Positions 6,430 through 61,884 of a stretch of 64,000 nt of DNA are shown piece by piece (the first letter of the stretch is position 1; every line of letters starts with the position of its first letter). The notes under the pieces were generated by a model, which was not told where the DNA came from, made no database searches, and was given only the letters and a program-made list of their open reading frames with translations. A program made the position numbers and the translations under genes. Origin of the DNA: Lytechinus variegatus (Eukaryota > Echinodermata > Echinoidea > Temnopleuroida > Toxopneustidae); assembly GCF_018143015.1 (NCBI RefSeq), contig NC_054758.1, forward strand, positions 6,798,501 through 6,862,500. Reading direction: 5' to 3'.

Positions 6430-6955
6430 GCATTTCCCGCCATCCGACATATCGCGTGCCTGAAGAACGAATTAAGAAATGTAAAAATTACTAATGGTAG
6501 TGTTTAATATTTCATAGATGCAACGAACCATTTTTGATGAAAATTTTGAATATCCATGAAGAAAGTCTGCTTTGATTGACAGTGCCGATAATTGAGGAAA
6601 TTTTACAGTTTGTCAAAAGGAAACAAATTGGTGGGTTCAGAACAAATACGTATAAGCAACCAGTCTTCTCTCTCGTCGATGTTTGATAGTTAAGTGACAC
6701 CTGAGCCATTACCACAATTTGGAGACCCACTTTCAAACCGGACTCGTCAAAAGACAGAATACGTCTACTGACTTCATGACTTTGATATCGACTGAAACCC
6801 TGCAGATCGACAGAACGTTGAAAGCGTGCATGTCCCGGCCTGGCATTCTGTTCAATACCGGACAAAAACAAATAAGCTATTGAGCTGTAACGGGATAAAG
6901 TAAATCCAGTATCGATTATTAAATCTTAAATCCCTGATTAGAAAGCTTAATCGAA
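6430..6955 (+). promoter_or_regulatory. Conserved 5' flank of receptor copy 2
   Basis: Aligns with 1-555 and with 22,560-23,088. Copies 2 and 3 also share an extra block further upstream (about 6,010-6,080 and 22,410-22,490), so the duplicated unit starts at least 900 bases before the ATG. It probably holds the promoter and 5' UTR. No coding frame is kept among the three. Confidence 0.5.
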
Positions 6956-8260
6956 ATGGAAAACACGAGTGATATTCATCACAATACCTCGAGCTGTTGC
7001 GTAGATCAAGATTTGTATGATATAAGTGAACACTCCATAAGTTCGATTGCGTGGCTAGCCACTGTCCCTTTGACTCTTTCGATAATAATCGCAGTCACTG
7101 TACTGGGAAACGCGATGGTGATTGCAGCTTACTTTCGGGACAAACGCATCAGGAATAATGTAGCGAACCTCCTCATCTTAAACCTTGCAATAACAGACTT
7201 TGTCGTCGGTGCTTTCATCATTTCCATTGACACTGCGTGGATCATCAAAGACGTCTGGACCTATGGAGAAGTGTTCTGCAAAATCTGGCTAGACGTTGAT
7301 TTCGTAGTCACCATGATGTCTTTGCTCACCATGGTGCTAATCAGCTGGGACCGTTACTGTCTCCTGACGATGGGGATGCGGTACAAGACATTCCAGACGA
7401 AAAAGCGTATTTGCGTGATCCTTGCCATTTCTTGGACAACTGTAAGCCTGATATACACATTCCTTGCTTTCGCATGGAGTCCCATTACTGGTGAATTTAA
7501 CGTAGATTACTCTCAAAACTGTGAAATGGAATTTGTATACAACCTGGCCGCAACGATCGTCATCAACATTTGCGGATTCTTCATTTCATTTACTATCTTA
7601 ATTATCCTTATTATTGCTGTGTACAGTAACATAAAACGAAGGTCTAGGGGTACCGTCGGTCAAAGCCCTTCAAGTTCAATAAATACGTCGGCTAGGTCCC
7701 AAAATAAAAGCTTTGGGCCTAGATCTCCAAGGAGAGTAAACTACCGCCATCCCGACGGTCCTTCTGGCCAAGTCGCAGATTCACCTACCCGCGGTGGTGA
7801 TGCTGCTGCAGCAAATGTAACTACAGAGACTTCTGACAACCCTGCAGATGGAGAAAAACCCCTCACAAGAGAACTGTCAAATGAAAGAGCCTCTTCTTCA
7901 AAGAAAGAAGGTCGAACATTCGCCAGGCATCGAAAAGCAGCCTTCGTGTTAGCCATCCTTATCGGCTGTTTCCTGCTCTGTTGGTTACCTTACCAAGTAA
8001 CAAGCGTAATGTATGCAGTCTGTGATACCGATTGCGTCTCCACTCGTTTGTGGGAGGTCACGAATTTACTTCTTTGGTGTAACTCAACCATTAATCCCTT
8101 TATCTATGCTTCTACTAATGTCCACTTTCGTCGGAACTTTAGGAAGTTTCTGTTGCTTGATCGTTGGGCTTGTGACTTTAAAAATTGTAAGATAAAATGT
8201 CAAAATGCAAATGAGATTCAGGTTGCCACTGGAAGCCTTAATGGCAGCACGGTTACCTAA
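6956..8260 (+). CDS. Amine-type GPCR, histamine H3/H4-like, tandem copy 2
   Basis: An intact, intronless receptor of 434 residues, close to copy 1 through the membrane core and differing mainly in the N-terminus, loop 2 and the Ser/Arg-rich loop 3. D115 (3.32), the W-DRY motif at 131-134, CWLPY in TM6, W7.43 and NPxxY are all kept. The striking difference is TM5: the near-universal Pro5.50 is Ser (residue 211), which could change helix geometry or activation. Position 5.46 is Gly, not the Glu of vertebrate H3/H4. The lack of frame damage implies recent duplication or selection for function. The ligand is unknown. Confidence 0.9.
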   Translation: MENTSDIHHNTSSCCVDQDLYDISEHSISSIAWLATVPLTLSIIIAVTVLGNAMVIAAYFRDKRIRNNVANLLILNLAITDFVVGAFIISIDTAWIIKDVWTYGEVFCKIWLDVDFVVTMMSLLTMVLISWDRYCLLTMGMRYKTFQTKKRICVILAISWTTVSLIYTFLAFAWSPITGEFNVDYSQNCEMEFVYNLAATIVINICGFFISFTILIILIIAVYSNIKRRSRGTVGQSPSSSINTSARSQNKSFGPRSPRRVNYRHPDGPSGQVADSPTRGGDAAAANVTTETSDNPADGEKPLTRELSNERASSSKKEGRTFARHRKAAFVLAILIGCFLLCWLPYQVTSVMYAVCDTDCVSTRLWEVTNLLLWCNSTINPFIYASTNVHFRRNFRKFLLLDRWACDFKNCKIKCQNANEIQVATGSLNGSTVT

Positions 8261-16194: not shown

Positions 16195-19100
16195 TAGTCC
16201 AGTCAATATATGGTTTGACCCACCACTAATTGCAACACGAGAATTTCTAGTGCAATGCATTGTAGTAAGGTCCTCTTAACACCATACTAAAAGTCCCAAG
16301 AAATCCAAGTAGTAGAAATTTATCAAATTTGCATATTATGCAAATTATCCTTTGTTACAGGGGAAATTTTCATATTTCATCCAAAAAATGGAAATTACTA
16401 TCTATTTAAAATGATTTGAGTGTTTAAATTGATAGCTTGAAGGTCAGAGATTAAATTCGACATAATTAGGAATTGTTTGTCTAGATGAAACTTGCATAAT
16501 TTGCATAATATTATGCAAATTAGTAGTTATAATTCTGAAAAAAGGCATAATCCATATCTTTTTGGGGAAAAAAGATATCTGAACCAAAGTAATTTGAATG
16601 AAAATTATGATGGAACATTATAAATCTGTTGTAGATTGAATCACGTGACCACATTTATCTAATTTGCATAATATGCACATAAGCATCCGTCATTTTGGAA
16701 AATGTAAGTAATATGAGATTTTCCACTTAAGCATTTGTGTTAGACTCTCGTGAAAGAGAAAGCAATAGGATGGGATTACTAAGAAAGCATGACAGATACT
16801 TGCATATTCAGCTTTTATGTCTGAAAAATAATTTGCATATAATGCAAATAACTATTATTGTTGCTGATCATTATAATATGGAAATGGAAGTCAGAACAAA
16901 TGGTTCCAATGTCACTGTAAAAAACAGGAAAAAAATGATGTGTAAAAGGGTCATCTTTTTCTTCTGAAAACCTTTTAGTTATTAATTTGTTCCAAGAAAT
17001 ATATTGTTTAGAAATATGACATTATTGCAACAGAATATGATAAATTACTACCATTGTTAAGTGGAAAATCAGGACCGGAAGTGTTAATATCCATAAACAA
17101 AACAAAATTTGTCCTGAATTTTCGAGCTAGACCTTATTAGTCCTGTTGTGTTCACTTGAAGGATATTATCAGCCCAAACCATTCAGTAGCCAGAGGTAGC
17201 ATTGCTGTTTTTAGAGAGAAAAACTTGGGAGCAATATGGAAACTTTCACAGGTTCATGCACATCCACATCTTCTGTAGCAGGTCATCAATGGAAACCTAC
17301 AAAACAATGAAAGTACACATTTTGAAATAATTGTATTCGTATTTGTAATGATGATATCTCTTTCATATTTTGAGACATGAAATATGAGATGCTGTAAAAT
17401 GCATGATAGTTTTCCAGAGTTAGGAGGAAATTTTATTTTATTTTATTTAAAAGTCAACATTAATGTGGTTGTTTATCTACTCTCGGATGAAGTGTTATGG
17501 TAACTATAACGAGTATAGCAAACTTACTCAGAAGATTACTCACATACATCATCTTCTATCTCAAGCCGAGAGGAATTACCACAGCTTTCACCTTTACACA
17601 CCCCGCACATCCATGAATATGGTATGGGGATTCTTTTGCATGAGCATCGGCTTGTGCTACATCCAGTCTTACAGTTGCACCTGAATATCTTGGTCAACTT
17701 ATCTGGAGCAGCAGGGAGATGTGTCTGTACTGGAAGCATTTGGCCATTCTTAATCTCCCATCCCCATTCTTCAGGTTTCAGATTTCTCGTGGTTTCCTTC
17801 CAAGTCTGTACCTGATAATACACCTTCAATGTATGATATTCTGTTGCGGCAGATGTTGGGGGTAATGTCTTCGGTTCAACAAAGGTGCTACTTTTTGTCA
17901 CCTTTTCACAGAATCTTCTGTACCGCAATTCATTTATGCTGTCACCCTTCTTGCCTTTATAGAGGTAAACAAGACTTCTTTCGCCAGCACTGACGATGTC
18001 TTCCTTTGAGGCATCCTCGCTGGTGAACAGGTCAGCAAGCTGCTGGAAATCACCATTCTTCTGGACTTCTTTCAAGGCAACCGGTTTGCCTATTCCAAAC
18101 ACTCTTGATGTTGTGTCACACCCAAGCAGCGCATGGACAAAGAGCAGCCGGGAACATAGTGGCATTCCCAAGATCTCCCTTGTTTTCCTTATGTTCCATA
18201 TCTTCTGCTTCCTTGTATTAGCCTTCATTTCGGGTTTCAAGTACAACTCTTTCTCAATGGCACTTCCATAAAAGCACAAGAAGATTAACAGATCAGTATC
18301 ATCACCAATGAGGACAGTGTTTGCGACCTTGCTTGACTCTATTGTTGTCTTGGCAATCAAAATGTCAGCGTCGCCCCTGGCGTGAATTGCTGTACAGTCT
18401 GCCTTCTCAAGGTAAGAGCTTAGCATTCTGAGAAAGCGTTGCTTGTTTGACTTGTTACAGACAAACTCCTGTTTCTTCAACCTCAGTGAAGTTTCTCCTG
18501 TGAACACAACATCTGGTCCTTTGGAACTACTCGTGCGTCTGCAGTGTGTAGCATCTTTGATTGCCTTCCCATACAGACGTGTGACATACGTAACATACAT
18601 ATTGCATATGCTATCAAAGGTTTGACCCCTGGACCAAGGTAGACGGTGCAAGAGTGCACCACCATCAAGCACATAGCGTAGATTATCATATGTTGGCTCT
18701 GACTGATTATGCTTCACAATATCCCACAGAGCATCACCAAGCGTTGCTTTGTTTGCCTCTCTTGGCAGACCATCATTGTCGAATAATGATGTTGGGTGAC
18801 TGCAAAGCTCATACTTGAACAGAGCTGCGGAATCTTCCTGCTCATCCCGGGGTAGCAATGATGCTCAGTCTTTGGAAGAGTAATTCTGGATCCACGTGAA
18901 CTTTGTCTCCATTGACATCAACAGTTCTGGTCTGGAAAGTAACCACCTGGTGTTTCCTTTGGAATGAGTACTTACATCTTTTCCTACCATTGACTGAATG
19001 ACGGCCTGGCCTACATCTCTTGCTTGGTCGACATTCACTTTCTTGTGTGCTGTTACCCCACTCACTATATTATGGAGAGATGGGTCAGGTCCAAATGGGT

Positions 19101-21944
19101 CCCATTGCTTGAATGATTCAATGAGCTTGTGGGTATCATTCAAGTCTGTTCTAGAGCTTGAAGAATCTTTATGCTGCTCGCTGGTGATGTAGTTGATGCC
19201 AGCGAGCTCTTGCATTGCCAAGTTTATCTCAGCACACGATGGCATGCTCAATATCCATGTTAACCTTTGAGCTTCCGCCATGCCCTTGCCTCTTGTGAGA
19301 CCTCCACTTGTCTTAATACTTCGCATGAGCACTTGCTCGATCACAAGATCTGTTGACAAGCCTGCCCAGTAACGATCGCTCCTCCTCACAACATGGAAAC
19401 CACTCATGAAGGCATGATAAACATCTGCGTGCGTCTCACTAAGATGGGACATCTTTTGTAGATACAGATATGCTGATTTGACATACATGTTGTGCCCAGC
19501 TGCTGCAAAGTATGGCAACATGCCCTGTATTGCTGAAAGATGGAGCATCCAGTTGCCAGTTCGTTCTGCTTTGATGAACCTCTTCAAGATGACAACCAAC
19601 TCCAAATATTGTAACCATAGCTTAGCGGTCCTTCGGTCACTTATTCTATCACGCTCCTCTTTAGTTTTAACAGCAACTCTTGAGAGCACACCCAGAGAGG
19701 ATAAGTCAGTACTAACATCGCTATCTATCATCAGGCGATCGAATATTTTTCCATTATCTATTTCCATCTCCTCTGGTAGCTCTGATGTTTGCAAGCTTTC
19801 AGAACATCCAGTATCTTGTTCTTCGACATCATGGTGATTTGTAGGTATCTGAACATTGTATGCATTTGCTACAAGTATCGTGTTAAGGGCTGCATCAACC
19901 AAGCTTCTGCTTCTTAGCAGCACTACTTGGTGAGCATCTAGAAGAATAATGTTGTGGAAGCTGCTTTCCTGTTCTAAAGTTGACACTACAGCTTTGATGA
20001 TACACTGCATCTACTGCTACGAGATCATGAACAGATGCTATGCGACTAGCAACTGATGTAGACCATTCATCTTTCCTTTTAGCACATGAAATTAGTACAC
20101 TTTCTTGAAATGATGTACTTGTGACAAGATGCACATCCATCTATCCAGGTTTATTTTCACAAGCGGCTGGTTTGCCGCAAAACAAGCAATCCTCACCAAA
20201 ACTAAATGTTGGACTCTCTGAACGAAGAACACACCGTGGAGAGGTGTCCTCTCCTACCTCTTTTCCCTGTGCTCTTAAAACGGTATTTGGTTGGGTAAAT
20301 ATCCGTCGGCATTCGGTGTGCACTCGCTGCCCTTTCTGAGTTCTTATAGTACTTTTTTGTTGCTCACTGGCCCTGTTGATACTCTCACTTCCCTTTTCTC
20401 TCAAGATTACAGTTTCTTGGCCATTGTCACAACTCTCTTTGCAGAAAACACATTCAGCCATAGTTATCTGTAATTCAAGGAAGGAGAGCAGAAGCAAAAT
20501 TAGAAGCGGCATAAGACCAAGTTAATTGACATCAACTGGAAATTTTTGGCATAAAAAAGCATTATCAAAAAATCTATCACTATTTTTATATTTCCCTTTT
20601 ATATAATTTTTGTTCCTCTGATATTCTATTGATCTGATCCCGGCCATTACAATTTTTACATATAACAATTCATATTTCTTTACAATCAATTACAATTAAT
20701 CTTTAATAAATTAGAAAGCAAAAGAGAGATTTCTGAGTTTTCATTAAACATAGGATTGCCAGGCATAGCAAAATATTCAATAGCAATTTGGTTCTTAAAT
20801 CCTGATAGAGAATTGCTATCTGGGCCATTGCTATTATAATAATCCACCAACTCATGATTTATAGAAAGCTCAAATTTCAGATTTTACAGTGACAGAAAGT
20901 GATACTGGTAAACACGTGTCAAGCAAAAAGGTTACACTTTCACTTACCAAAACAGCAAAGCTTTCAGTTCAGATGAAATGTGCATAGGTTTCTGAGTTGA
21001 CTAGTCTGAATACCATACATGTGTGCTGTCAGAACTTTTAGGCCTCATAAAATTTTATAAAATACACTGCATTAATGTCATGTATACATGTACATGAGAG
21101 AGTGGATGAGACAACCATGTTATATAGCCACAGAACTGTAGAGACAGTACTGCCTTTAATTTGGTACTCACAAAGAAGAACAAAAACACATTCAATTGAT
21201 TATGCAATGAGTCATGGGTGTTGCAACATCAGTGGATTATCCTTTGTTAGGTATTTTAAGCTTCTAAGGCAGAACCTAAAAAATATCAAACACTATCCAA
21301 AACTTGTTGGTCTTAAGTATTCTTTCTCAAAAAAGCAATTTTAAATGTTTTTATTTGAAATCACATTTTCTTCAATATGAGAAATCTGCTAAAAGAGTCA
21401 TTGTAAAAAGGGAAGTTTTCCATTCGGTATTTGAACTTCTGATTGAAATGGAAAATATGCTGTATGTATTTGTCACATTTTTCTCAAGAGAATTATTTTT
21501 CAATTTATCATGTTTAAAATCTTCTGATCATACTGACAAAAATGATTGAAAAGTGTGCCCATATGTAAATATTATCATTTAACTATTTTGTGTACAATAT
21601 TGAAGACAAAAAATTGCATAATGTGCAAAATTAGCAAAGTTTATCCAGAAAAAGTCTATATACTTGTGTTCATCATACTCTCTGACCTTCAAAGCATAGG
21701 TATGAACACTTAAATCATGTAAAACGGTTAAGTATTTCCATTTCTGTGAGGAAAATTGATAAATTCACATACAACAAAGGATTATTTGCATAATATGTAA
21801 ATTAGATAAATTTCCACTTCTTGGATTTCTTGGGACTTTTTATATGGTGTTTTGGGGACCTTACTAAAATGCATTGCGGTGAAATATCACTTGTTGCAAT
21901 TAGTGGTGGGTTACCCCCTCATTTTTACTAGATTGACTGGACTA
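16195..21944. mobile_element. Academ-like DNA transposon, about 5.75 kb
   Basis: The ends are inverted repeats beginning TAGTCCAGTCAAT, alignable with gaps for about 270 bp (16,195-16,465 and 21,670-21,944). AAT flanks both ends (16,192-16,194 and 21,945-21,947), a plausible 3-bp target duplication. The single gene, on the minus strand, has paired Cys/His zinc-binding motifs and an XPG/FEN-like nuclease region. That combination, with 3-4 bp TSDs, is known from the Academ superfamily (XPG-bearing branch). Copies of a palindromic ATTTGCATAATATGCAAAT-type word crowd both ends (about 16,330, 16,500, 16,665, 16,835, 21,615 and 21,790). The stretches 16,466-17,245 and 20,469-21,669 are AT-rich and show no other gene. 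Confidence 0.75.
17246..20468 (-). pseudogene. Academ-type transposase with XPG-like nuclease (broken)
   Basis: Minus-strand gene starting at ATG 20,461, just after a strong splice acceptor (long pyrimidine tract ending at 20,469). The N-terminus has two CxxC...HxxC pairs, around C4/C7 and, past the first break, the 'YHQSC' segment. The C-terminal half has 'GDADILIA', 'IGDDTDLLIFL' and 'ALLGCDTTS', resembling the acidic I-region and helix-hairpin-helix of XPG/FEN nucleases, then a Cys-rich zinc cluster near the end. Three lesions: an in-frame TAG at 20,141-20,143, a frameshift near 19,896, and an in-frame TGA at 18,865-18,867. A GTATGT donor after 17,548 and an acceptor before 17,296 give a small last exon (17,246-17,296) in phase. 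This copy cannot make a full-length enzyme; the family role is inferred from motifs. Confidence 0.7.
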
Positions 21945-22410: not shown

Positions 22411-23088
22411 TTGTTATTACCAATCTCCTGGCGCAAAGCTTGCTAGGAAACGACCAGACCATTTCGATAAATGTTTCGAATGAACCAGCCTCTATTTGAT
22501 CCAACCGACCTCCCGTTAATGAGGTCGGCGATTACCTTTTATCATTAAGCATTTCCCCCATATCAAATGTACCTGAAGGACGAATTAAAAAAATAAAAAT
22601 TGTTATGTGTTTTGTTTAATATTTTACAGATGCAACGAACCAAGTTCTATGGAAATCCTGGATATCTATCACGAAAGTCTGCTTTGATTGACAGAACCGA
22701 TAATTGAGGAAATTTCACGGTTTGTCAAATGGAAACAAATTGACATGTTACCTTGTTTCAGAACAAATACGTATATAATCAGCCAGTCTTCATACATGTC
22801 ATATGAAACTCTTTCGTCGATGTTTGAGAGTTAAGTGATACCTGAGCCATTAACCACAATTTGGAGACCAAATTTCTTACCGGACTCGTCATGAGACAGG
22901 ATACTGATTTTGATATCGACTGAATTAAGCCATGTAGATCTGCAGAACGTTGAAGGCGTGCGTGTCCTGGCCTGGCATGGTGTTCCATACCGGACAAAAA
23001 CAGATAAGCTATTGAGCTGTAAAGGGATAAAAATAAGTCCAATATCGATTGTTTAATCTTAAATCCCTGATTTGATAGCTTAATCGAA
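22411..23088 (+). promoter_or_regulatory. Conserved 5' flank of receptor copy 3
   Basis: Aligns with the flanks of copies 1 and 2 up to the ATG. The last 60 bases are nearly the same in all three. Start of homology with copy 2 is about 22,411, giving the left limit of the duplicated unit. Confidence 0.5.
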
Positions 23089-24364
23089 ATGGAAAACACG
23101 AGAGATATTCATCAAAACACCTCGAGCTGTTGTGAAGATCAAGATTTGTATGATATTCCCATGCATTCGATTGCGTGGCTAGCCACTGTCCCTTTGACTC
23201 TTTCGATAATAATCGCAGTCACTATAGTGGGGAACGCGATGGTGATTGCAGCTTACTTTCTGGACAGACGCATCAGGAATAATGTAGCGAACCTCCTCAT
23301 CTTAAACCTTGCAATAACAGACTTTGTCGTCGGTGCTTTCATCATTTCCATTGACACTGCCTGGATCATCAAGGACGTCTGGACCTATGGAGAATTGTTC
23401 TGCAAAATCTGGATAAACGTTGATTTCGTAGTCACCATGATGTCTACGCTCACCATGGTTCTTATCAGCTGGGACCGTTACTGTTTCCTGACGATGGGGT
23501 TGCGGTACAAAACATTCCAGACTAAAAAGCGTATTTGCGTGATCCTTGCCATTTCTTGGACAATTGTTATCCTGATATACACATTCCTTGCTTTTGCATG
23601 GAGTCCCATTACCGGGTGAATATAACGTAGATTATTCTCAAAACTGTGAAATGGAGTTTACATACAACCTGGTCGCAACGATCATCAACAACATTTTCGG
23701 ATTCTTCATTCCATTTGCTATCTTAATTATCCTTAACATTACTGTGTACAGAAACATATATCGGAGGTCTAGGGGTACCGTCGGTCGAAGCCCTTCAAGG
23801 TCAATAAATACGTCGTCTAGGTCACCAAAGAAAAACTTTGGGCCTAGATCCCCAAGGGGGGTAAACTACCGTCATCCCGACGGTCCTTCTGGCCCAGTAG
23901 CAGTCTCACCTAGACGCGGTGGTGATGCTGCTGCAGCAAATGTAACTACCGAGTTTACTGACAACCGCGCAGGTGGAGAAAACCCCGTCACAAGAGAACT
24001 ATCAAATGATAGAACCTCTTCTTCAAAGAAAGAAGGTCGAACATTTGCCAGGCATCGAAAAGCAGCCTTCGTGTTAGCCATCCTTATCGGATGTTACCTG
24101 CTCTGCTGGTTACCCTACCAAGTAACAAGCGTAATGTATGCAGTCTGTGATACCGATTGCGTCTCCATTCGTTCGTGGGAGGTCACGAATTTACTTCTTT
24201 TGTGTAACTCAACCATCAATCCCTTTATCTATGCTGCTATTAATGTCCACTTTCGTCGGAACTTTAGGAAGTTTTTGTTGCTTGATCGTTGGGCTTTCGA
24301 CTTTAAAAATTGTAAAATGAAATGTCAAAATGCAAATCAGATTGGTTGTCACCGGAAGCCTTAA
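23089..24364 (+). pseudogene. Amine-type GPCR, tandem copy 3, frameshifted
   Basis: The third member of the array keeps the ATG, TM1-TM4, Asp3.32 and W-DRY. One extra G in the 'accgggtga' stretch near 23,615 (copies 1 and 2 read a single Gly-Glu codon pair there) then puts a stop after 176 residues, in loop 2. The remaining TM5-TM7 coding sequence runs in another frame to 24,364, and a second indel (two bases lost near 24,344) alters the C-terminus. Several otherwise conserved positions also differ, for example Leu for Arg in the first intracellular loop. As read, the product lacks TM5-TM7 and should not work. A base-calling error could explain the first shift, but two separate indels favour a real pseudogene. 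Confidence 0.8.
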
Positions 24365-43239: not shown

Positions 43240-45190
43240 TTTGACACAATACACACCAATAGGCCACACACAGTTGTAAGTTTAGAAGGTACAGTAGCAT
43301 TTGCTACCATTGACATATGTCCACAGAGTCGGTCAACATAAGCTCTACCTAAGAGTTGACTCAAGTGCAAGTACTAACACTATCATAGTACGTACGCCAA
43401 GAAAATATAAAGTTCAAAGTGCGAATCATTAGTGAAACAAACATCAGTAAAACTTGAAGCTTATGGTGAGATTCCAATCAAATTTAAAGGTACACTTGAC
43501 ATAAAATGTTATAGTCCAAAATGGTCAACACAGACATTCTATGTACCAGGTTGTTAGGTTACACTGACCTTGGAATTATCAAAATTCACTCAATGTACAA
43601 TTATGACCCTACACCTTACCCTAAACCTAAACAAACACTTATCAAAAGTGATAAGGATCTCGAACAAGCATTTCCAGAGCACTTCGATGCTATTGGTAGT
43701 TTCAAAGGAAAAGCGATGCTTCGTGTCAAGGACATCGCTAAACCTATCATAGACGCACCACGCAAGTGCAGCACACTAATTGAAGGACAAGATCAAGATC
43801 AACGTGGAGGAACACGACAAGAATCTGTACTTGTTCATGGAGACAGCAAAGCAAGAAGGCTTAGTGTTCAACAGCTCCAAGTGCACAATCAAGAAAGAAG
43901 CTATCAACTTCTTTGGCTCAAAGTGCACTAAATCAGATATCTACCCAGATCCTAGCAAAGTAGAAGCCAACACATTACCCAAGTACTATTACCCAAGGAC
44001 AAAGAGGATGTTCAGAAATGCCTAATATTGTTCAAATACCTAGCAGCATATATTCTTAATTTGTGGGAAAAGTCGGCACCACTTCGATAACTTCTCCACA
44101 AGGAAGTACCGTTCATCTGGGACGAAGATCATGAACATTCCTTGAACAGCCTGAAATGTTCAGAATCATCAGGTGCATGCCTACAGTTCTATGACCCAGA
44201 GAAAGAGAGAACTGTCAAGATAGATGCATCAATGAAAGATCTAGGAGCATGCCTGCTTCAGGAAGGTCACCTGCTGCATTTGCATCCAAAGTCTTTCCAC
44301 TGCACAGTCCAGCTACTCAAACATAGAGGGAAATCTTAGTCCTAATGTTTGGTATCAAACGCTTCTATAATACCTGTTCGGGAAGGAATTCACAGTCATA
44401 ATCAATCACAGACCACTGGAAATTATATGAAAAAAAAACTATTACAAGTGCACCGCCGCATCTACAGGGATCGCTTATCAAAGTCCAAGGAAACAGGAGT
44501 CAAGTCAAGTACCGACCTGGAAACTACATGATTCTTTCCGATACGTTGAGTCGACTTCCTAGTCCCAAGGAAGCATGCGATGTACCGTTAGGTGTCAAAG
44601 TTAAATCCATCTGCTCTGAGGAAAAAGATTCGCATATGCGATCGACTTTTTACTCTTCGGACAACTCAAGAGGACATAACTTCAGAGAGAAACGGCTAAT
44701 AAAGTACCAGACAGATTGCTCGTGAGACAGTGTTCTTGTCAAACATCAACAAGGACATCGACCAGTTGATAAAGCAGTGTGAAACATTCTAGAAACATCA
44801 GGCAAGGCAGCAGAAGAAAAGAAGTGGAATATCAAGCACATTACTTCTTCTCCACACTATCCAAGATCAAACGGATTAGCTCAGAGGATGGTTCGTACCG
44901 TCAAGAATCTGTTGACAAAATGTCCTCAGACTGGCCAAGACAGTCAACTAGCAATGATGAAACTGAGAGCAACACCAGTCGAAAGTAACTTGAGATCACC
45001 AGCAGAAATGTTATTTGGTAGACCCATCATAACCACATTATCAAGTCACTATTTCTCGAGAGATTCTACTGCCACTGATTTTCTCTTGAATAGGCAAGAC
45101 AAGGTGAAGGAAGTGAATTATCGACATGCAAGTTCTGATCTACTACCTCTGCATTTAGGACAGCCAGTGAGAGTTATACACCCAAGATAA
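43240..45190 (+). pseudogene. Decayed Ty3/Gypsy-type pol
   Basis: Fragments in retroelement order across all three frames. A retropepsin-like segment near 43,340-43,560 has 'RVDSSAS', where the family has Asp-Ser/Thr-Gly. Reverse transcriptase remnants include 'DIAKPIIDAPRK' (about 43,730) and 'EEHDKNL...SSKCTIKKEAINFFG' (about 43,800-43,920); the intervening palm with its YxDD motif is deleted. An RNase H-like 'VKIDASMKDLGACLLQ' lies at about 44,215-44,260. Integrase remnants lie at about 44,720-45,060, and its C-terminal catalytic Glu position reads Gln in 'NGLAQRMVRTVK'. Many stops and frameshifts make it inactive. Direct LTRs were not found; instead it lies between the arms of a large inverted repeat. 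Confidence 0.75.
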
Positions 45191-52070: not shown

Positions 52071-53665
52071 ACCTTAACATCACCATTAACATGAAATCAA
52101 ACACACATCGGCACAAGCAAAAACATAACAAACAAACAAACATGCATGGGTATTTCAAACCACGACTCAAACCATGTTATCTCACAGTATCACCACTACA
52201 GAAGCAGGGGGCTTGATTTGAATGGATTTTCATATCTATTGAGACAGACAAAATAATCATGTTCTGTATTGACCCATCATGACTATTTCTGCTCGTTTTT
52301 GCAGCTTTTCAATTCAAACATCATTCAACACATTTGAATAATGCTCCTTTTCCCGATGGCATGATCATAACAAGCGGGGTATCATTTTAAAGAGAATTAA
52401 ATGATTTTTGCGCGCGCTATTTAAATCCGAACAATTAATACATTCTTCATATTAACTCTAAAAAGCGTAAAAATAACGTTTCCTTTAAAAATACGACTGC
52501 TCTGTTCTCGGTGAAATTAAACAACCTCGGTTTTTCCAATTATATATGTATGTCTTACGCAATATAATTTTTATTGAATAATTATATTATTGATTGCGTT
52601 TGAAACTGCATTTGACATTGCTGCTAAGATATTGCTGCCGTTTGGGGGACGGTCGGGTCTATTCTTGCTCATGATTAATATCGATTTTCTTATTGATAGC
52701 CTAAGTGAATCTTGAAGATTTGTTTGAAATTAGCATTTCTTCAAGCTAGATTTAATCAAAGAGATGACATACGCTCCAAGCCGCGGTGTGCTGAATAGTG
52801 CTTCAACGAACTCTCATACTGCACATAAGGAACAGAACATACGATGGAGCCTTCGCATCGACATGAAGGAAGCACTCGCTTTGTTCAGAGTGCAGTTAAA
52901 AGAGTGTGTCAAATGGCGCTATTATCATGATTATACAGGAATTTTTTTCCACCGTGCGCCATTCTCATAGAGAGAAATAGTAATAATAATAATGATAAAC
53001 TGTGAATAAAAAAAAACATAGGGGGCAGAGCTGCGTGAACCCTATGCTGAAAATATATGTCAAAATAAAATGTTTCCGTTGTTTGTTTTTTGTTACACAT
53101 ACTCATGGCAATTGTACTATTCTTTCTTTACCCCCCCCCCCCGACCCTAAAGTTAATCTAGAGACGTCTAGAAGACTTCGTACCTGCATGAGATCTAATG
53201 ACAACAATCGCAATTACGAACTTGGATTTGGAGACCAATGCATCGAAACTACTTCACTTATTTGTGTAGTGCTTGAATCATAAATTAACATTAGGAATAA
53301 CTTGAATTTCGACAATGCAAAGATATTGCAAAAAAATATATGTATAGCTGCTATACTCACGTTGAACCACTTATGTACTTTCGGAAAACTCTCCAGTGCA
53401 TGTATTCGTATGGTTAGCTAAGTATGATGGTAATTGGTACGGAAATATCGACCGCAAGATTTGCCTTCTATCAAGATAATGACTCGATGTAATTACAATG
53501 AATAACAAATGAAATGCCTTTGAATTGTAGAATTTGTTTTGTTGCGTAATGACTGGGTGCCTGGGCGTGAACTTACCACGCTAAATATATGCTTAGCAAG
53601 CTGGAATTAACCATTTAGATGCCAATTTGAAAGATTGTCCAGAGAAGTACGCACCTAAACCAACC
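52071..53665 (+). other. Upstream region of receptor paralogue 4
   Basis: No gene recognised. AT-rich with a poly-C run near 53,131-53,142. It presumably holds the promoter and 5' UTR of the receptor that begins at 53,666, but no homology with the flanks of copies 1-3 was noticed. Confidence 0.35.
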
Positions 53666-54979
53666 ATGGTTTTTAGTAGTTCAAGTGGCTTGGGAGTAGC
53701 GGGAAACGGGAGTGCCATCTCCGAATCTGTGGACAGTTACCCCTCTGATTACAACTACAGCCTTTCTTCGGACCACACTTTCGATTACTCATCAAACTAT
53801 TTCTCTTCGTACACCTACGAGTATCCATTCTCTTCAACGTGGCTTGCCATTGTTCCAATGATTGTTTCCATCATGAGTGTCGTGACGTTCCTTGGAAACC
53901 TCTTTGTCATCCTTGCTTACATCCGGGACAAACGCATCCGGGCGAGCGTGGCAAACCTCTTCATCCTCAACCTCGCAATGACTGATATCATAGTAGGAGC
54001 GCTGGTCTGGACGATCAACCTATCATGGCTCATAAAGGACTCCTGGATACTTGGCGAGATCTTCTGCAAGCTTTGGTTGGTGTTGGACTACTCGGTGGTT
54101 CTCATATCCGTCTGGACAATGGTCCTGATAAGCTGGGATCGCTACTGTCTTCTGACAATGGGCATGAGGTACCAGACTTTCCAGACCAAGAAGAGAATTG
54201 GTGTCATACTTGGCTGCGTTTGGGCAGCTACATTCATATGGTACTTCATCCTTGCTTTTGCATGGGATTCTATCGCAGGAGAAAACAAGATAGATTATAC
54301 TGACAACTGTGAGATGGGATTTGCGCTTAGTTTCTTGGGGACAATGCTCCAGAACGTGATCTCATTCTTTATACCGTTATCAGTTCTGATATTTTTCAAT
54401 CTGGCGGTGTATGCTAACATCAAACGTAGATCGAGGGGTGTCGTAGGGCAGAGTCCTCCGTCAAACAAATCAAACCAAGCAACACAATCTACCGTGCTCA
54501 GTCAAGAAGGAACTGGCTCATCGGAAGGTCAAGGAAACCATCCACTCACGGATATGAAAGCCGCCGAGTGCTCAGAGCCAGGCCCATCAACTGCTAGCTT
54601 TCGTACAACTATCCAACATATCCAGCTCCCAGAGTACAAACCAGTCAGTGGTCGAATCGCAGTTGAGCCGAATACAGAAGAAAGAAGTTTTGCAAAGCAT
54701 CGCAGAGCGGCAATCGTCCTGAGCATTCTCGTGGGTTGTTTTTTGATCTGTTGGTTACCTAGCCAAGTGTCTACTTTCATGTACGCAATCTGTGGAACCG
54801 GCTGCGTCACCGATTTAACATGGGAAGTCACAAGTTCATTTGTTTGGAGTAACTCGACTATAAATCCCTTTATATATGCAGCTACGAATAAGCTCTTTCG
54901 TCGTAATTTCGTGCACAGTTTATGCCTTGATCGATGGATCTGTGACTTGAAACGGTGCAAAGTCAAACGCAAACGTTAA
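53666..54979 (+). CDS. Amine-type GPCR, histamine H3/H4-like, divergent paralogue 4
   Basis: Intronless receptor of 437 residues. I place the start at the ATG in 'accatgg', an excellent Kozak context; the frame stays open 13 codons upstream but only from a TTG. The N-terminus is long, Ser/Tyr-rich and has N-glycosylation sequons at N14 and N30. N78 (1.50), D107 (2.50), C134, D141 (3.32), W-DRY at 157-160, P5.50 in 'FFIPLSV', CWLPS in TM6 and W7.43 with NPxxY are visible. Ser replaces the aromatic 6.51 and also occupies 5.46, so the amine pocket differs from copies 1-3 and from vertebrate H3/H4. Loop 3 is long and Ser/Thr-rich. The TFQTKKR loop-2 segment is shared with copies 1-3, confirming common descent. 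Ligand unknown. Confidence 0.9.
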   Translation: MVFSSSSGLGVAGNGSAISESVDSYPSDYNYSLSSDHTFDYSSNYFSSYTYEYPFSSTWLAIVPMIVSIMSVVTFLGNLFVILAYIRDKRIRASVANLFILNLAMTDIIVGALVWTINLSWLIKDSWILGEIFCKLWLVLDYSVVLISVWTMVLISWDRYCLLTMGMRYQTFQTKKRIGVILGCVWAATFIWYFILAFAWDSIAGENKIDYTDNCEMGFALSFLGTMLQNVISFFIPLSVLIFFNLAVYANIKRRSRGVVGQSPPSNKSNQATQSTVLSQEGTGSSEGQGNHPLTDMKAAECSEPGPSTASFRTTIQHIQLPEYKPVSGRIAVEPNTEERSFAKHRRAAIVLSILVGCFLICWLPSQVSTFMYAICGTGCVTDLTWEVTSSFVWSNSTINPFIYAATNKLFRRNFVHSLCLDRWICDLKRCKVKRKR

Positions 54980-55984: not shown

Positions 55985-56207
55985 ATTTACCCAGGTTAGC
56001 CACTTCAATCACAAGACTGCTCCTCCAGCGGGCCTTGCATAACATAATATGTTATTATTACCCTTCTCCAGTCTAAATGCTGAGCGCCAAGCAAGAAGGC
56101 AGAAGGTCTCATTTTTATAAGTCTTTGGTATGACTCAGCCGGGGATCGAACCCACGACCTCCCGTTCATGAGGCGGACGCTCTACCACTGAGCCAACATG
56201 CCTGGGA
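55985..56207 (-). repeat. tRNA-derived SINE with Met-type anticodon head
   Basis: On the minus strand a tRNA-like head has A box TGGCTCAGTGG (56,185-56,195), a CAT anticodon triplet (56,168-56,170) and B box GGTTCGATCCC (56,142-56,152). The acceptor ends do not pair. The body continues to about 55,985, where an ATT-rich tail follows. The body is shared with 5,333-5,400, 36,108-36,180 and 63,445-63,505. This is the only copy here with head and body joined. Confidence 0.75.
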
Positions 56208-58150: not shown

Positions 58151-58380
58151 CTGAAGGTTTCCATGGCGAAGAATAGTGTAGTAGGTTTTACGGTACACCA
58201 TGTTTCTTTCTTGGGCAAGTGTTGGTCCTGAAAAGGAACACCCGATCTCGACGTTTCGACAAGTGTGTTCTTGTCGTCCTCAGGATAACACACTTGTCGA
58301 AGCGTCGAGATTGGGTGGTCCTTTTCAGGGCCAATACTTGCCCAAGAAAGATACATGGTGTACAATGAAACCTACTACTC
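58151..58380. mobile_element. Palindromic element with 13-bp flanking repeat
   Basis: A near-perfect palindrome at 58,178-58,378 (arms run from 'gtagtaggttt' to a centre near 58,275). The direct repeat CATATTTTGTCAT flanks it at 58,138-58,150 and 58,381-58,393. The left side has 27 extra bases before the palindrome. Thirteen bases is long for a DNA-transposon TSD, so either a coincidental extension or another mechanism is involved. All frames across it are mirror images and not genes. Confidence 0.7.
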
Positions 58381-58393
58381 CATATTTTGTCAT

Positions 58394-59044
58394 GCAAACA
58401 CCAGCGCGAACTTTACGGTCCGTTTGCAATAAGCAGTGTGAAGATATAAGTATACATTATATATATATATTCATAGTGTATATTGCAAAATATCCATGAA
58501 ATTTCGCTCGATGAGCGCTCGATCGCCATGATCGCTCCGCTCTAAAATATTGTCCCATATCGCAATGGCTTACCCCATCAGATTGTTTCACGCATTACGC
58601 CTCTGTAGCTGGAGAATAGATAAACGCCGTTTAATGTTGTTTCCATACTAAATCGGACCATAAATTCTCGAAAGGTAAAAAGATTGAACAGTGCGTGGTA
58701 GTCTCATTCATCGTGAGCAGCGACCTGTAACATGGTAAACCAAGCATTTAGAAATAAGGTCTGAAAACATAAATTGTGTCCCACTTGTCTTGTTCGTGTA
58801 TCGATCTTTTAACCTATGGACCTAGGTCCATGGTTAAACGTAGGTATTTATCAGGCGTATCAGGAACCATATACAGTGTTATTGATCTCGAGATATTAGC
58901 TTAGCGATAGACTTTGATACAAAGCAGATCATTTCGTAACGAATATCCAGGTAAATGTTACTCGTTTTGTTGCCTACCCGAATAAAGGCCTACCATACAT
59001 TGGTTGTACGTCCTTTGAGTTACATGAATATACACATTTAGATT
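58394..59044 (+). promoter_or_regulatory. Upstream region of the PhnZ-like gene
   Basis: Noncoding stretch before the ATG at 59,045. It probably contains the promoter and 5' UTR, but no core promoter motif or upstream exon could be fixed. Confidence 0.3.
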
Positions 59045-61884
59045 ATGGCGGGAAATGTGGACGTTGAATCTGTAGTCGACCGTATCTTCAAGCTGTTTGA
59101 TGACCATGGCAGTGAAGATTACATAGGGGAGCCGGTTTCGCAGACTGAACACATGATTCAATGTGCTATGCAGGCAGAGCAGGGCGGCTACGGAGAGGAG
59201 GTGAGCGAGTTTTTATATTATATAGTCAATTGCTGTCTGTATGGTTTAGAACAGTACAAAGTGTACATTTTATTTAACAAACAAAACTGCAAATTATTAT
59301 GCAGGCGCAGACCCTATACCATCAGAAGAATATGAAATTTTAATGACGGTTTAACAAGAAAAATAAATAATATAGCTACTGATATTCAATATTTGGTTTC
59401 GTGACGTCATGTTTTTCTCAAAAAAAGTGTGCATGACTTGTCACAATTACAAAGTCCTTCTTTCATGAAAAAAGTCCTTAATCTAATAAAAACCTAAATG
59501 TCCCGTGGTATTTGTGTTATAATTATTGGTTACAAATTTGAAATTCTAATTATATGTACATTTCATTAGCCTAGCTCGTGTTTAACTGCATTATCACAGG
59601 TTCGATGCAAAATTGTGATGTTTTTCAAATGAAATTACTTTGAGTTTGTGATTATTGTTATTTTTGTTGTTGTCTTAGTATAGTTCGATGAATCCATGAC
59701 CTTGCATTGAAGTCCTCGGGGGATACATTGACGAGTGGATACCATGCGCGACCAAAAAAAAAACACGAAAAAGGATGTCCTTTTCAAGATAGGGCACGTT
59801 ACGTTACGTAGGGGGGGGGGGCACTTCCATTCACGAGTGGATACCATGCGCGACCATGTGGTCTCGAAAAGCACCCTAAACACGTAATTTCCATATTCTG
59901 AAAATGCACCCCTTAACAAGTATTGGCGTGTGAAACCCTACCCTTAACAAGTATTGGAAACAAAACGATACTCTTGGCAAATATTCCCCGAAATGAACCC
60001 CTAAACAAGTACAGGAATGTTTTATTGTTACGGGTCCTTTCGTCGTCGGCTTTACCTTATTTGGTTTAGTATACGACCCCATCTTCTACACCTCGCGCAA
60101 ATCGGACTCTAAACACGAAGTGTTGGGGCAAAAAGGACCTCCTTTATAAAACATTTTAATTTTGTTTTATCATTCCCGCAAATTCGACCCTAAACACGTA
60201 ATTTTCCTAGCGAAATAGATACCCTTTTTTCATTATTTTTGTGTTTTTGACACCCTTATCACGTTACGTACGTAACGTGCCCTCTCGTGAAAAGGACATC
60301 CTTTATACGTGTTAATTGGTCGCGCATGGTATCCACTCGTCAATGTAAGTGCCCCCCCCGGGAATATTTTATGAAGGATGTCCTTTTTGCCCCAACACTA
60401 TACGTGTTTAGAGTTCGATTTGCGCGAGGTGAAAGGTGGGGCCGTACTGTACCAAATGGTGTGTAAAGGTAAAACCAAACCGACGTCGACGGACATAACA
60501 ATGTACTTGTTTAGGGGTTCATTGCAGGGAATACTTGCCAAGAGTATTGTTTTGTTTCCAATACGTGTTAAGGGTAGGGTTTCACACGCCAATACTTGTT
60601 AAGGGGTGCATTTTCAGAATATGGAAAATACGTGTTTAGGGTGCTTTTTGAGACCCCTTGGTCGCACGTGGTATCCGCTCGTCAATGGAAGTGCCCCCCC
60701 CCCCCCGGGATTGAAGTAGAACTGCAACAGCTTTCACCTGGGCGTTTAGTGCGCCGTTTTCCTCGACTTTGCCATTGTGTATTGGTTGCATTTATGGCCG
60801 ACTTGTTATTCGAATACATTCGTATATCTATTTTGTTAAGTAATCCAATTATTCTCAAAATTTTTAAAGGTCATATTAGGTGCACTGCTCCACGACATTG
60901 GGCATCTCGTTGGCATGGAGCAAGGCTCATCTCGCATGGAAACAGGCGGGGTTGCTTTGGGAGCAGCGAATCATGAGATCTTGGGAGAGAGGTTCCTGCT
61001 CGACCTCGGTCTTCCGGAAACAGTTTGCAAGCTGGTCAGAGGTCACGTGGACGCCAAAAGATACTTGGTTTACAAGAACGAAGAATATAGAAAACGTACG
61101 GATTTGATAGCATTGTCTATTGACTTTATAACAAAAATTATTGTGGTAAAACTAGGAATGTCACATTGTTATCATGATACATCCCAGTTTGGTTTAGTTA
61201 CAAGATCTGCAAGAAACTTCTTTTCTTATGAGGCCTTCAACAAAATAACATTCATTGAAGGTTGAATGGAAGAGAAATAAAGCAGAAGAAAAATGCGAAA
61301 AGGAATGAAACCATAAGCGCATATGCTGCTCAGACCTCTTCGGATTCTCTTGAAAATATCGTCATGGAAATGTCCTCTTGTGTATTCTTTATAAAATAGG
61401 GCCATATGTACTTTCTGATGTATTAAGTAAATCTGAATTCTTACTTCATAAGAAGTATTCTTCCTTGCAAAAAAAAAATGAGTAAAACAACTATAGTGAA
61501 GGGCCGAACGTCCATGACGCCGTATATTTTAAACACATAGGTGGGTCTTACCATTCCTGTTAATGTTACGACATTTCAAACTTTATGTAAAATTGGAAGG
61601 CTGTCGTTGTGTGCTTCAAATTATACATCTTCATACTTCGCCTTTGTACCTGTTTTATTTTCACTCTAGAACTGTCAGAAGCAAGTAAGATGACGCTTGT
61701 ACACCAAGGTGGCCCCATGGATGCTGATGAAGCGGCCTCCTTTGAGGCGTCCCAATACCATGACCTCATCCTTCAAATGAGACAATGGGATGAAAGGGCA
61801 AAGGTCAAGGGGTTACCGATTGACCCACTCCAGAAGTACAAGGAAATGTGCAGGAGAGTTGTTGGAAACTGTGGCAAAGTGTGA
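59045..61884 (+). CDS. PhnZ-type HD-domain di-iron oxygenase (three exons)
   Basis: Exons 59,045-59,200, 60,870-61,095 and 61,670-61,884 join in phase through GT-AG introns (GTGAGC and GTACGG donors) into 198 residues, close to bacterial PhnZ (about 190). PhnZ cleaves 2-amino-1-hydroxyethylphosphonate to glycine and phosphate using a mixed-valent di-iron centre. Its known ligands and lid residues have counterparts here: Y26 and E29 in 'DYIGEP' (PhnZ Y24, E27), H36 (H34), H60-D61 in 'LLHDIGH' (H58-D59), H87 (H80), H111 (H104) and D168 (D161), with constant offsets of 2 then 7. The Glu lid residue favours an aminoethylphosphonate-type substrate over the trimethylated one of TmpB. No signal peptide, so probably cytosolic. 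Activity is inferred, not shown. Confidence 0.85.
59713..60710. mobile_element. Nested C/G-run TIR elements in intron 1, 6-bp TSD
   Basis: The outer element begins TCCTCGGGGG and ends in a C run plus GGGA; TTGAAG flanks it at 59,707-59,712 and 60,711-60,716. A second copy, inverted, occupies about 59,811-60,362 inside it, with 'gcacttccattcacgagtgg' and its inverse at the edges, and replaces part of the outer copy's body. The sequence is the same family as 45,288-45,964. It is noncoding and wholly within intron 1 of the PhnZ-like gene, leaving the splice sites intact. Confidence 0.75.

Follow-up and report, generated by a model that had tools for sequence, protein, structure and literature searches.

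A predicted PhnZ/TmpB-type oxygenase gene in the genome of the sea urchin Lytechinus variegatus: a candidate for carbon-phosphorus bond cleavage in an animal

Can an animal break the carbon-phosphorus (C-P) bond of phosphonates with an enzyme encoded in its own genome? Animals are described as carrying aminoethylphosphonates (PMC6994554; PMC6429109), according to a review some marine invertebrates store much of their phosphorus as phosphonates, one sea anemone as much as half (PMC6429109), and candidate genes for the entire route to 2-aminoethylphosphonate (AEP) are reported from a coral (PMC3640398). Given this occurrence and these candidate synthesis genes, an enzyme for C-P cleavage in animals would close an evident gap. 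We analysed a window of 64,000 nucleotides, the whole stretch of Lytechinus variegatus DNA considered here, in which an earlier note had proposed an animal gene for a PhnZ-like oxygenase. The note called this family best known from marine bacteria, a description that needs an addition, since a fungal fused PhnY-PhnZ protein, PhoF, is known as well (PMC10574752).

The gene lies on the forward strand. It comprises three exons, and removal of its two GT-AG introns yields a single intact frame of 198 codons plus stop. Exon 1 (59045..59200) holds codons 1-52 and ends in phase 0; it carries the lid pair Y26 (59120-59122) and E29 (59129-59131) together with the metal ligand H36 (59150-59152). About half of the phase 0 intron 1 (59201..60869) is made up of a fold-back repeat element without assigned strand (59811..60704), the 203-nt arms of which (59811-60013 and 60502-60704) are 94% complementary. 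Exon 2 (60870..61095) spans codons 53-127 plus the first base of codon 128 and encodes the ligands H60 (60891-60893), D61 (60894-60896), H87 (60972-60974) and H111 (61044-61046). After the phase 1 intron 2 (61096..61669), exon 3 (61670..61884) supplies the remainder of codon 128 through the stop, including the ligand D168 (61789-61791). The start codon has an A at -3 and a G at +4, and an in-frame TAG lies two codons 5' of it. Further 5' of the gene, at 58157-58399, there is a palindrome with 113-nt arms, 86% complementary and 17 nt apart.

The spliced product behaves as a coherent family member. Against a profile of the 89 other sequences of our tree it scores 243.3 bits, whereas the best of 200 shuffled versions reaches 8.2 bits against the same profile, 146 of them being listed at all. 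Across the joint formed at intron 2 (EYRK/QLSEAS), bacterial relatives align gap-free and exactly in register. Among 35 in-frame GT-AG combinations (donors 61000-61200, acceptors 61500-61720), the proposed intron 2 splice is the top scorer, followed by a runner-up at 226.5 bits; read-through of exon 2 and the 34 other choices were rejected on their lower profile scores. The three-exon, phase-consistent protein of 198 residues thus stands as first described, both in its open frame and in its second splice.

The relatives we found sit in bacterial, phage or viral-contig records, the collections searched being without animal genomes, and this pattern could also be expected of contamination or of a non-functional insertion of bacterial DNA. 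The chance of this is negligible in our view. The frame is intact, intron 1 harbours the fold-back repeat, and there are two GT-AG introns, of which the second is exactly in register with the homologues. Moreover, an intronless receptor gene (53597-54979, forward strand; histamine H3 receptor match at E 8.3e-46, Pfam 7tm_1) is located 4 kb upstream on the same contig. On the strength of the introns, the fold-back repeat and this nearby receptor gene we reject bacterial contamination, and the histamine-receptor-like genes identify the contig as animal.

This receptor gene is the last of four intronless histamine-H3-like receptor genes on the forward strand, the others being found at 538-1866, 6938-8260 and 23071-24364. 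The first three are 82-92% alike and the fourth shares 41-56% with them; the gene at 23071-24364 is split over two frames and is therefore probably broken. Elsewhere in the window, three successive open frames of 442, 381 and 126 aa on the reverse strand (17536-20521), which have no Pfam match at E 0.001, may represent a repeated or mobile-element gene. Fragments at 43515-45190 on the forward strand resemble a retroelement integrase by eye, by a motif that we take to be that of an integrase; one of them (44783-45187) has no Pfam match. Finally, a reverse-strand segment (56131-56202) matches an Rfam tRNA model with 34.7 bits, ARAGORN with the bacterial code makes no call there, and it is perhaps a tRNA-derived repeat.

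To which family does the protein belong? Among NCBIfam models, TIGR03276 (phosphonate degradation HD-domain oxygenase; E 1.3e-58) ranks first, and because the score of 197.4 bits falls below the curated cut-off of 214.6, the protein is not filed under that equivalog. The models for TmpB (NF049941; E 2.3e-44, 151.4 bits) and for the hydroxymethylphosphonate dioxygenase PhnZ1 (NF052439; E 3.8e-33, 114.6 bits) match as well, each far under its 300-bit cut-off, and Pfam recognizes an HD domain (E 1.8e-08). Up to E=1, the protein sequences of the PDB return three PhnZ sequences (3.8e-35, residues 10-189), TmpB (5.8e-32, residues 9-192) and one chance hit (E 0.47). Homology to members of known function hence covers the full length. 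Neither myo-inositol oxygenase (MIOX) nor a known phosphohydrolase is among these matches up to E=1, and a MIOX-like identity was rejected on this ground. Judged by its sequence, the protein belongs with the HD-domain oxygenases of PhnZ/TmpB type.

The active site points in the same direction. Each of the six metal ligands (H36, H60, D61, H87, H111 and D168) has the identical letter in 89 of 89 other alignment rows, and the YxxE lid is present, with Y26 shared by 87 of 88 and E29 by 88 of 89 other rows. This lid is described as setting PhnZ and TmpB apart from MIOX, its glutamate contacting the substrate amino group (PMC8177086). All eight residues occupy the positions given to them in the earlier note, and its proposal that an animal genome encodes an HD oxygenase of PhnZ type is supported; the constant offset to PhnZ that it claimed does not hold. 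The numbering differs by +2 through D61 and by +7 from H87 onward, since the segment from D61 to H87 is longer by five residues (25 versus 20 in PhnZ). Among the 38 columns conserved in at least 93% of the other rows, the animal protein keeps 37, including the six ligands, the lid pair, H64, K115, S133 and Q140, and departs solely at L100, where 86 of 89 rows carry F. The counterparts of PhnZ H62, K108, S126, Q133 and R158 are likewise kept.

It could be argued that such a protein has abandoned phosphonate chemistry and uses its diiron site on another substrate, in another C-C or C-N cleavage, or acts as a hydrolase. The HD superfamily is described as spanning oxygenases through phosphohydrolases (PMC8177086), and the animal branch, with a length of 1.42 in the tree, is long and comprises a single predicted sequence. 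We consider this improbable in view of the 37 retained family-conserved residues, lid pair included, the absence of MIOX and known phosphohydrolases from the PDB matches up to E=1, and the observation that relatives from either side of the tree are often found among phosphonate genes.

In our preferred reading, which we hold to be likely, the product of this animal gene is a diiron oxygenase with an HD domain, of the PhnZ/TmpB type. Its substrate would be an (R)-alpha-hydroxy-aminophosphonate, with (R)-2-amino-1-hydroxyethylphosphonate (R-HAEP) as the most likely one, and cleavage of the C-P bond would give glycine and phosphate. Bacterial enzymes of this type are described as holding a mixed-valent diiron center on HD residues, with a lid tyrosine capping one iron until the substrate arrives (PMC8177086), and PhnZ as specific for (R)-alpha-hydroxyphosphonates and otherwise somewhat tolerant (PMC10574752). 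By analogy, the six His/Asp residues of the animal protein would bind one Fe(II) and one Fe(III), and Tyr26 would cap one of these irons in the resting state. Upon substrate binding, Glu29 would take the amino group of the substrate and Tyr26 would release the iron; O2 could then bind at the freed iron and abstract the alpha hydrogen, ultimately breaking the C-P bond. R-HAEP is a natural compound (PMC8154272), and the conserved lid glutamate suits an amino substrate, which makes glycine and phosphate the most likely products. The same glutamate occurs in families that act on different substrates, so this residue does not decide the matter. The substrate might be delivered by a PhnY-like hydroxylase encoded elsewhere in the genome or come directly from the diet, from symbionts or from the phosphonoglycans and phosphonolipids of the animal itself.

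C-P cleavage by the animal protein is well supported by inference, better than either its exact substrate or a PhnY partner, and the presence of an intact, intron-containing gene in an animal genome suggests that the animal can degrade phosphonates by itself. We regard the gene as solid and its predicted chemistry as likely. It provides a concrete and assayable candidate for C-P bond breakage in animals.

Placement in a tree could narrow down the subtype. The earlier note had proposed an alignment with PhnZ, TmpB and MIOX and a tree with other animal homologues; among PDB sequences up to E=1 the protein matches PhnZ and TmpB and not MIOX, and with regard to the PhnZ or the TmpB side the approximately unbiased (AU) tests allow either. 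In the tree of 90 rows, the animal protein falls on the PhnZ/Bacteroidota side of a split supported at 100/99 and adjoins a Bacteroidota/Pseudomonas clade (99/48), a placement that is not significant by AU. Moving it to the TmpB side gives p 0.597 and a likelihood 2.63 above that of the free tree; grouping it with PhnZ and the two neighbours of PhnZ gives p 0.225. After removal of eight long-branched or partial rows, it still stands beside the Bacteroidota/Pseudomonas clade (92/75), and the AU test returns p 0.37 for the TmpB side and p 0.481 for PhnZ alone. In this reduced tree, for which a long-branch warning was raised, PhnZ itself groups with the TmpB side. Seven columns distinguish the Bacteroidota/Pseudomonas clade from the TmpB clade; of these, the animal protein follows the former at four, TmpB at two and neither at one. 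Since the AU tests leave several placements possible, they settle neither source nor subtype, and a Bacteroidota origin is not established.

This latitude bears on the possibility that the enzyme is of the same type and acts on a different phosphonate with a different partner, either an N-methylated hydroxyphosphonate, yielding sarcosine or betaine as for TmpB, or hydroxymethylphosphonate, yielding formate as for the PhnZ of G. maris (GmPhnZ). The matches to both corresponding models (2.3e-44 and 3.8e-33) and the compatibility of a TmpB-side placement with the AU tests of both trees speak for it, as do marine snail glycans that are reported to bear N-methyl-AEP (PMC6994554). GmPhnZ, moreover, is described as cleaving R-HAEP in addition to hydroxymethylphosphonate (PMC10574752). 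However, both model scores are far under their 300-bit cut-offs, and among the best 80 of 203 confirmed genomic loci plus 7 plasmid loci, members of the Bacteroidota/Pseudomonas clade show higher identity to the animal protein (39.8-50.8%, mean 45.7, n=52) than do the loci on the TmpB/C-P-lyase side (34.8-41.9%, mean 39.2, n=33). We therefore judge another phosphonate unlikely, and retain R-HAEP as the favoured substrate.

Where would R-HAEP come from? Reasoning that PhnZ acts downstream of PhnY, the earlier note had expected a PhnY-like partner in the genome, an expectation that is weakened by the gene neighbourhoods of the relatives. These were drawn from the same best 80 of 203 genomic loci plus 7 plasmid loci, the latter hand-picked from 28 hits, so that the counts below are not a census. 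A gene counted as a neighbour when tblastn matched it to reference proteins from these very loci, the names being those given to the reference proteins by NCBIfam or Pfam, and the counts hardly differ between E 1e-12 and 1e-3. Loci shorter than 12 kb, cut by contig ends or by the chosen flank, make up 10 of 52 in the Bacteroidota/Pseudomonas clade and 10 of 33 on the TmpB side, and clade labels were assigned after the tree was known.

Within this sample, hydroxylases are rare near the relatives of highest identity: in the Bacteroidota/Pseudomonas clade, PhyH occurs at 1 of 52 loci and TmpA at none of 52, unchanged at E 1e-12, 1e-6 and 1e-3. The same clade has a PbfD/TIGR03364-like FAD oxidase at 32 of 52 loci (best identity of the matches 28-100%), a PhnX-like hydrolase at 26 and a DUF5690 protein at 26; neither oxidase nor PhnX-like gene is found at 14. 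On the TmpB/C-P-lyase side of the sample, 23 of 33 loci have a TmpA-like hydroxylase, 2 PhyH and 2 a TIGR03364-like FAD oxidase. Two sampled loci group with PhnZ, one of them a PhyH fusion. Close to the HD gene, phosphonoacetate hydrolase and phosphonoacetaldehyde dehydrogenase genes are found at three Sneathiella loci of the TmpB side, where the names were established at one of the three, and at one Chitinophaga-labelled locus in the Bacteroidota/Pseudomonas clade.

Several individual loci in the sample deserve mention. A SAR86 contig (L054) encodes an HD-PhyH fusion and a gammaproteobacterial contig (L070) a TauD-HD fusion; in these uncultured gammaproteobacteria the PhyH and TauD parts are likely the hydroxylases of the fused HD oxygenases. 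At L017, also from uncultured gammaproteobacteria, a PhyH gene adjoins the HD oxygenase and is likely its hydroxylase. At L005 and L006, HD oxygenase genes lie within (Nostoc) or next to (Variovorax) C-P lyase genes carried on plasmids.

Published clusters add to this picture. PbfD enzymes, one of them annotated as TIGR03364, are described as converting AEP and N-methyl-AEP to phosphonoacetaldehyde (PMC10590968). Furthermore, phnZ is reported from 15 of 1,186 phnWX and 24 of 75 phnWAY clusters, compared with 7 phnY*Z clusters, and pbfA, the gene for the R-HAEP lyase, accompanies it in none of the phnWX and phnWAY clusters (PMC8154272). Because hydroxylases are rare at the Bacteroidota/Pseudomonas loci and such published clusters contain phnZ, a PhnZ-type enzyme may, by analogy, serve as a hydroxylase-free side entrance for R-HAEP. 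The animal enzyme may resemble these systems, or PhnY may be encoded elsewhere in the genome. Within the 64 kb window, tblastn with neighbour clusters 1-29 matched the HD gene alone. The queries responsible were the fused proteins of L054 and L070, through their HD portions, and a frame antisense to the L024 HD gene; short exons could escape such a search. We tentatively speculate that the animal enzyme works without PhnY, in a salvage of aminoethylphosphonate that is already hydroxylated in nature and stems from food, from symbionts or from the animal's own phosphonoglycans and phosphonolipids. If true, the C-P-cleaving step of a hydroxylase-independent salvage would be encoded by an animal genome. 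The relatives also hint at partners to be sought besides PhnY, namely a FAD oxidase of the PbfD type and a hydrolase resembling PhnX.

As to novelty, automated RefSeq names of the PhnZ-type kind exist for some invertebrates, and the gene family itself may thus already be catalogued. In our literature search, no title or abstract start among the matches listed names an animal PhnZ. The kind of enzyme is already known from PhnZ, TmpB, GmPhnZ and the fungal fusion PhoF (PMC10574752). PhnZ of the bacterium HF130_AEPn_1 (PDB 4mlm, 4n6w, 4n71) shares the six His/Asp ligands and has the lid pair as Y24/E27, whereas the animal protein is five residues longer between D61 and H87 and is encoded by a gene with introns, and tblastn, which could miss short exons, showed no PhnY in the 64 kb window. 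TmpB of Leisingera caerulea (PDB 6npa) has the same metal motif and lid, but is described as working with TmpA on a trimethylated phosphonate (PMC10574752), and the animal protein reaches 151.4 bits against the cut-off of 300 of its model. MIOX is likewise an HD-domain diiron oxygenase, described as having no YxxE loop (PMC8177086). The HD oxygenases of Bacteroidota and Pseudomonas (Hymenobacter, Cyclobacterium, Runella and others), one of which is annotated as a phosphonate degradation HD-domain oxygenase, show the highest identity in the sample of the best 80 of 203 plus 7 plasmid loci, up to 51%, and differ in residing in bacterial clusters, often with the TIGR03364-like FAD oxidase, the PhnX-like hydrolase, the DUF5690 protein and SusCD. 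PhoF of the fungus Fonsecaea multimorphosa likewise provides a PhnZ-type domain in a eukaryote; its description as a PhnY-PhnZ fusion (PMC10574752) sets it apart from the animal protein, which stands alone.
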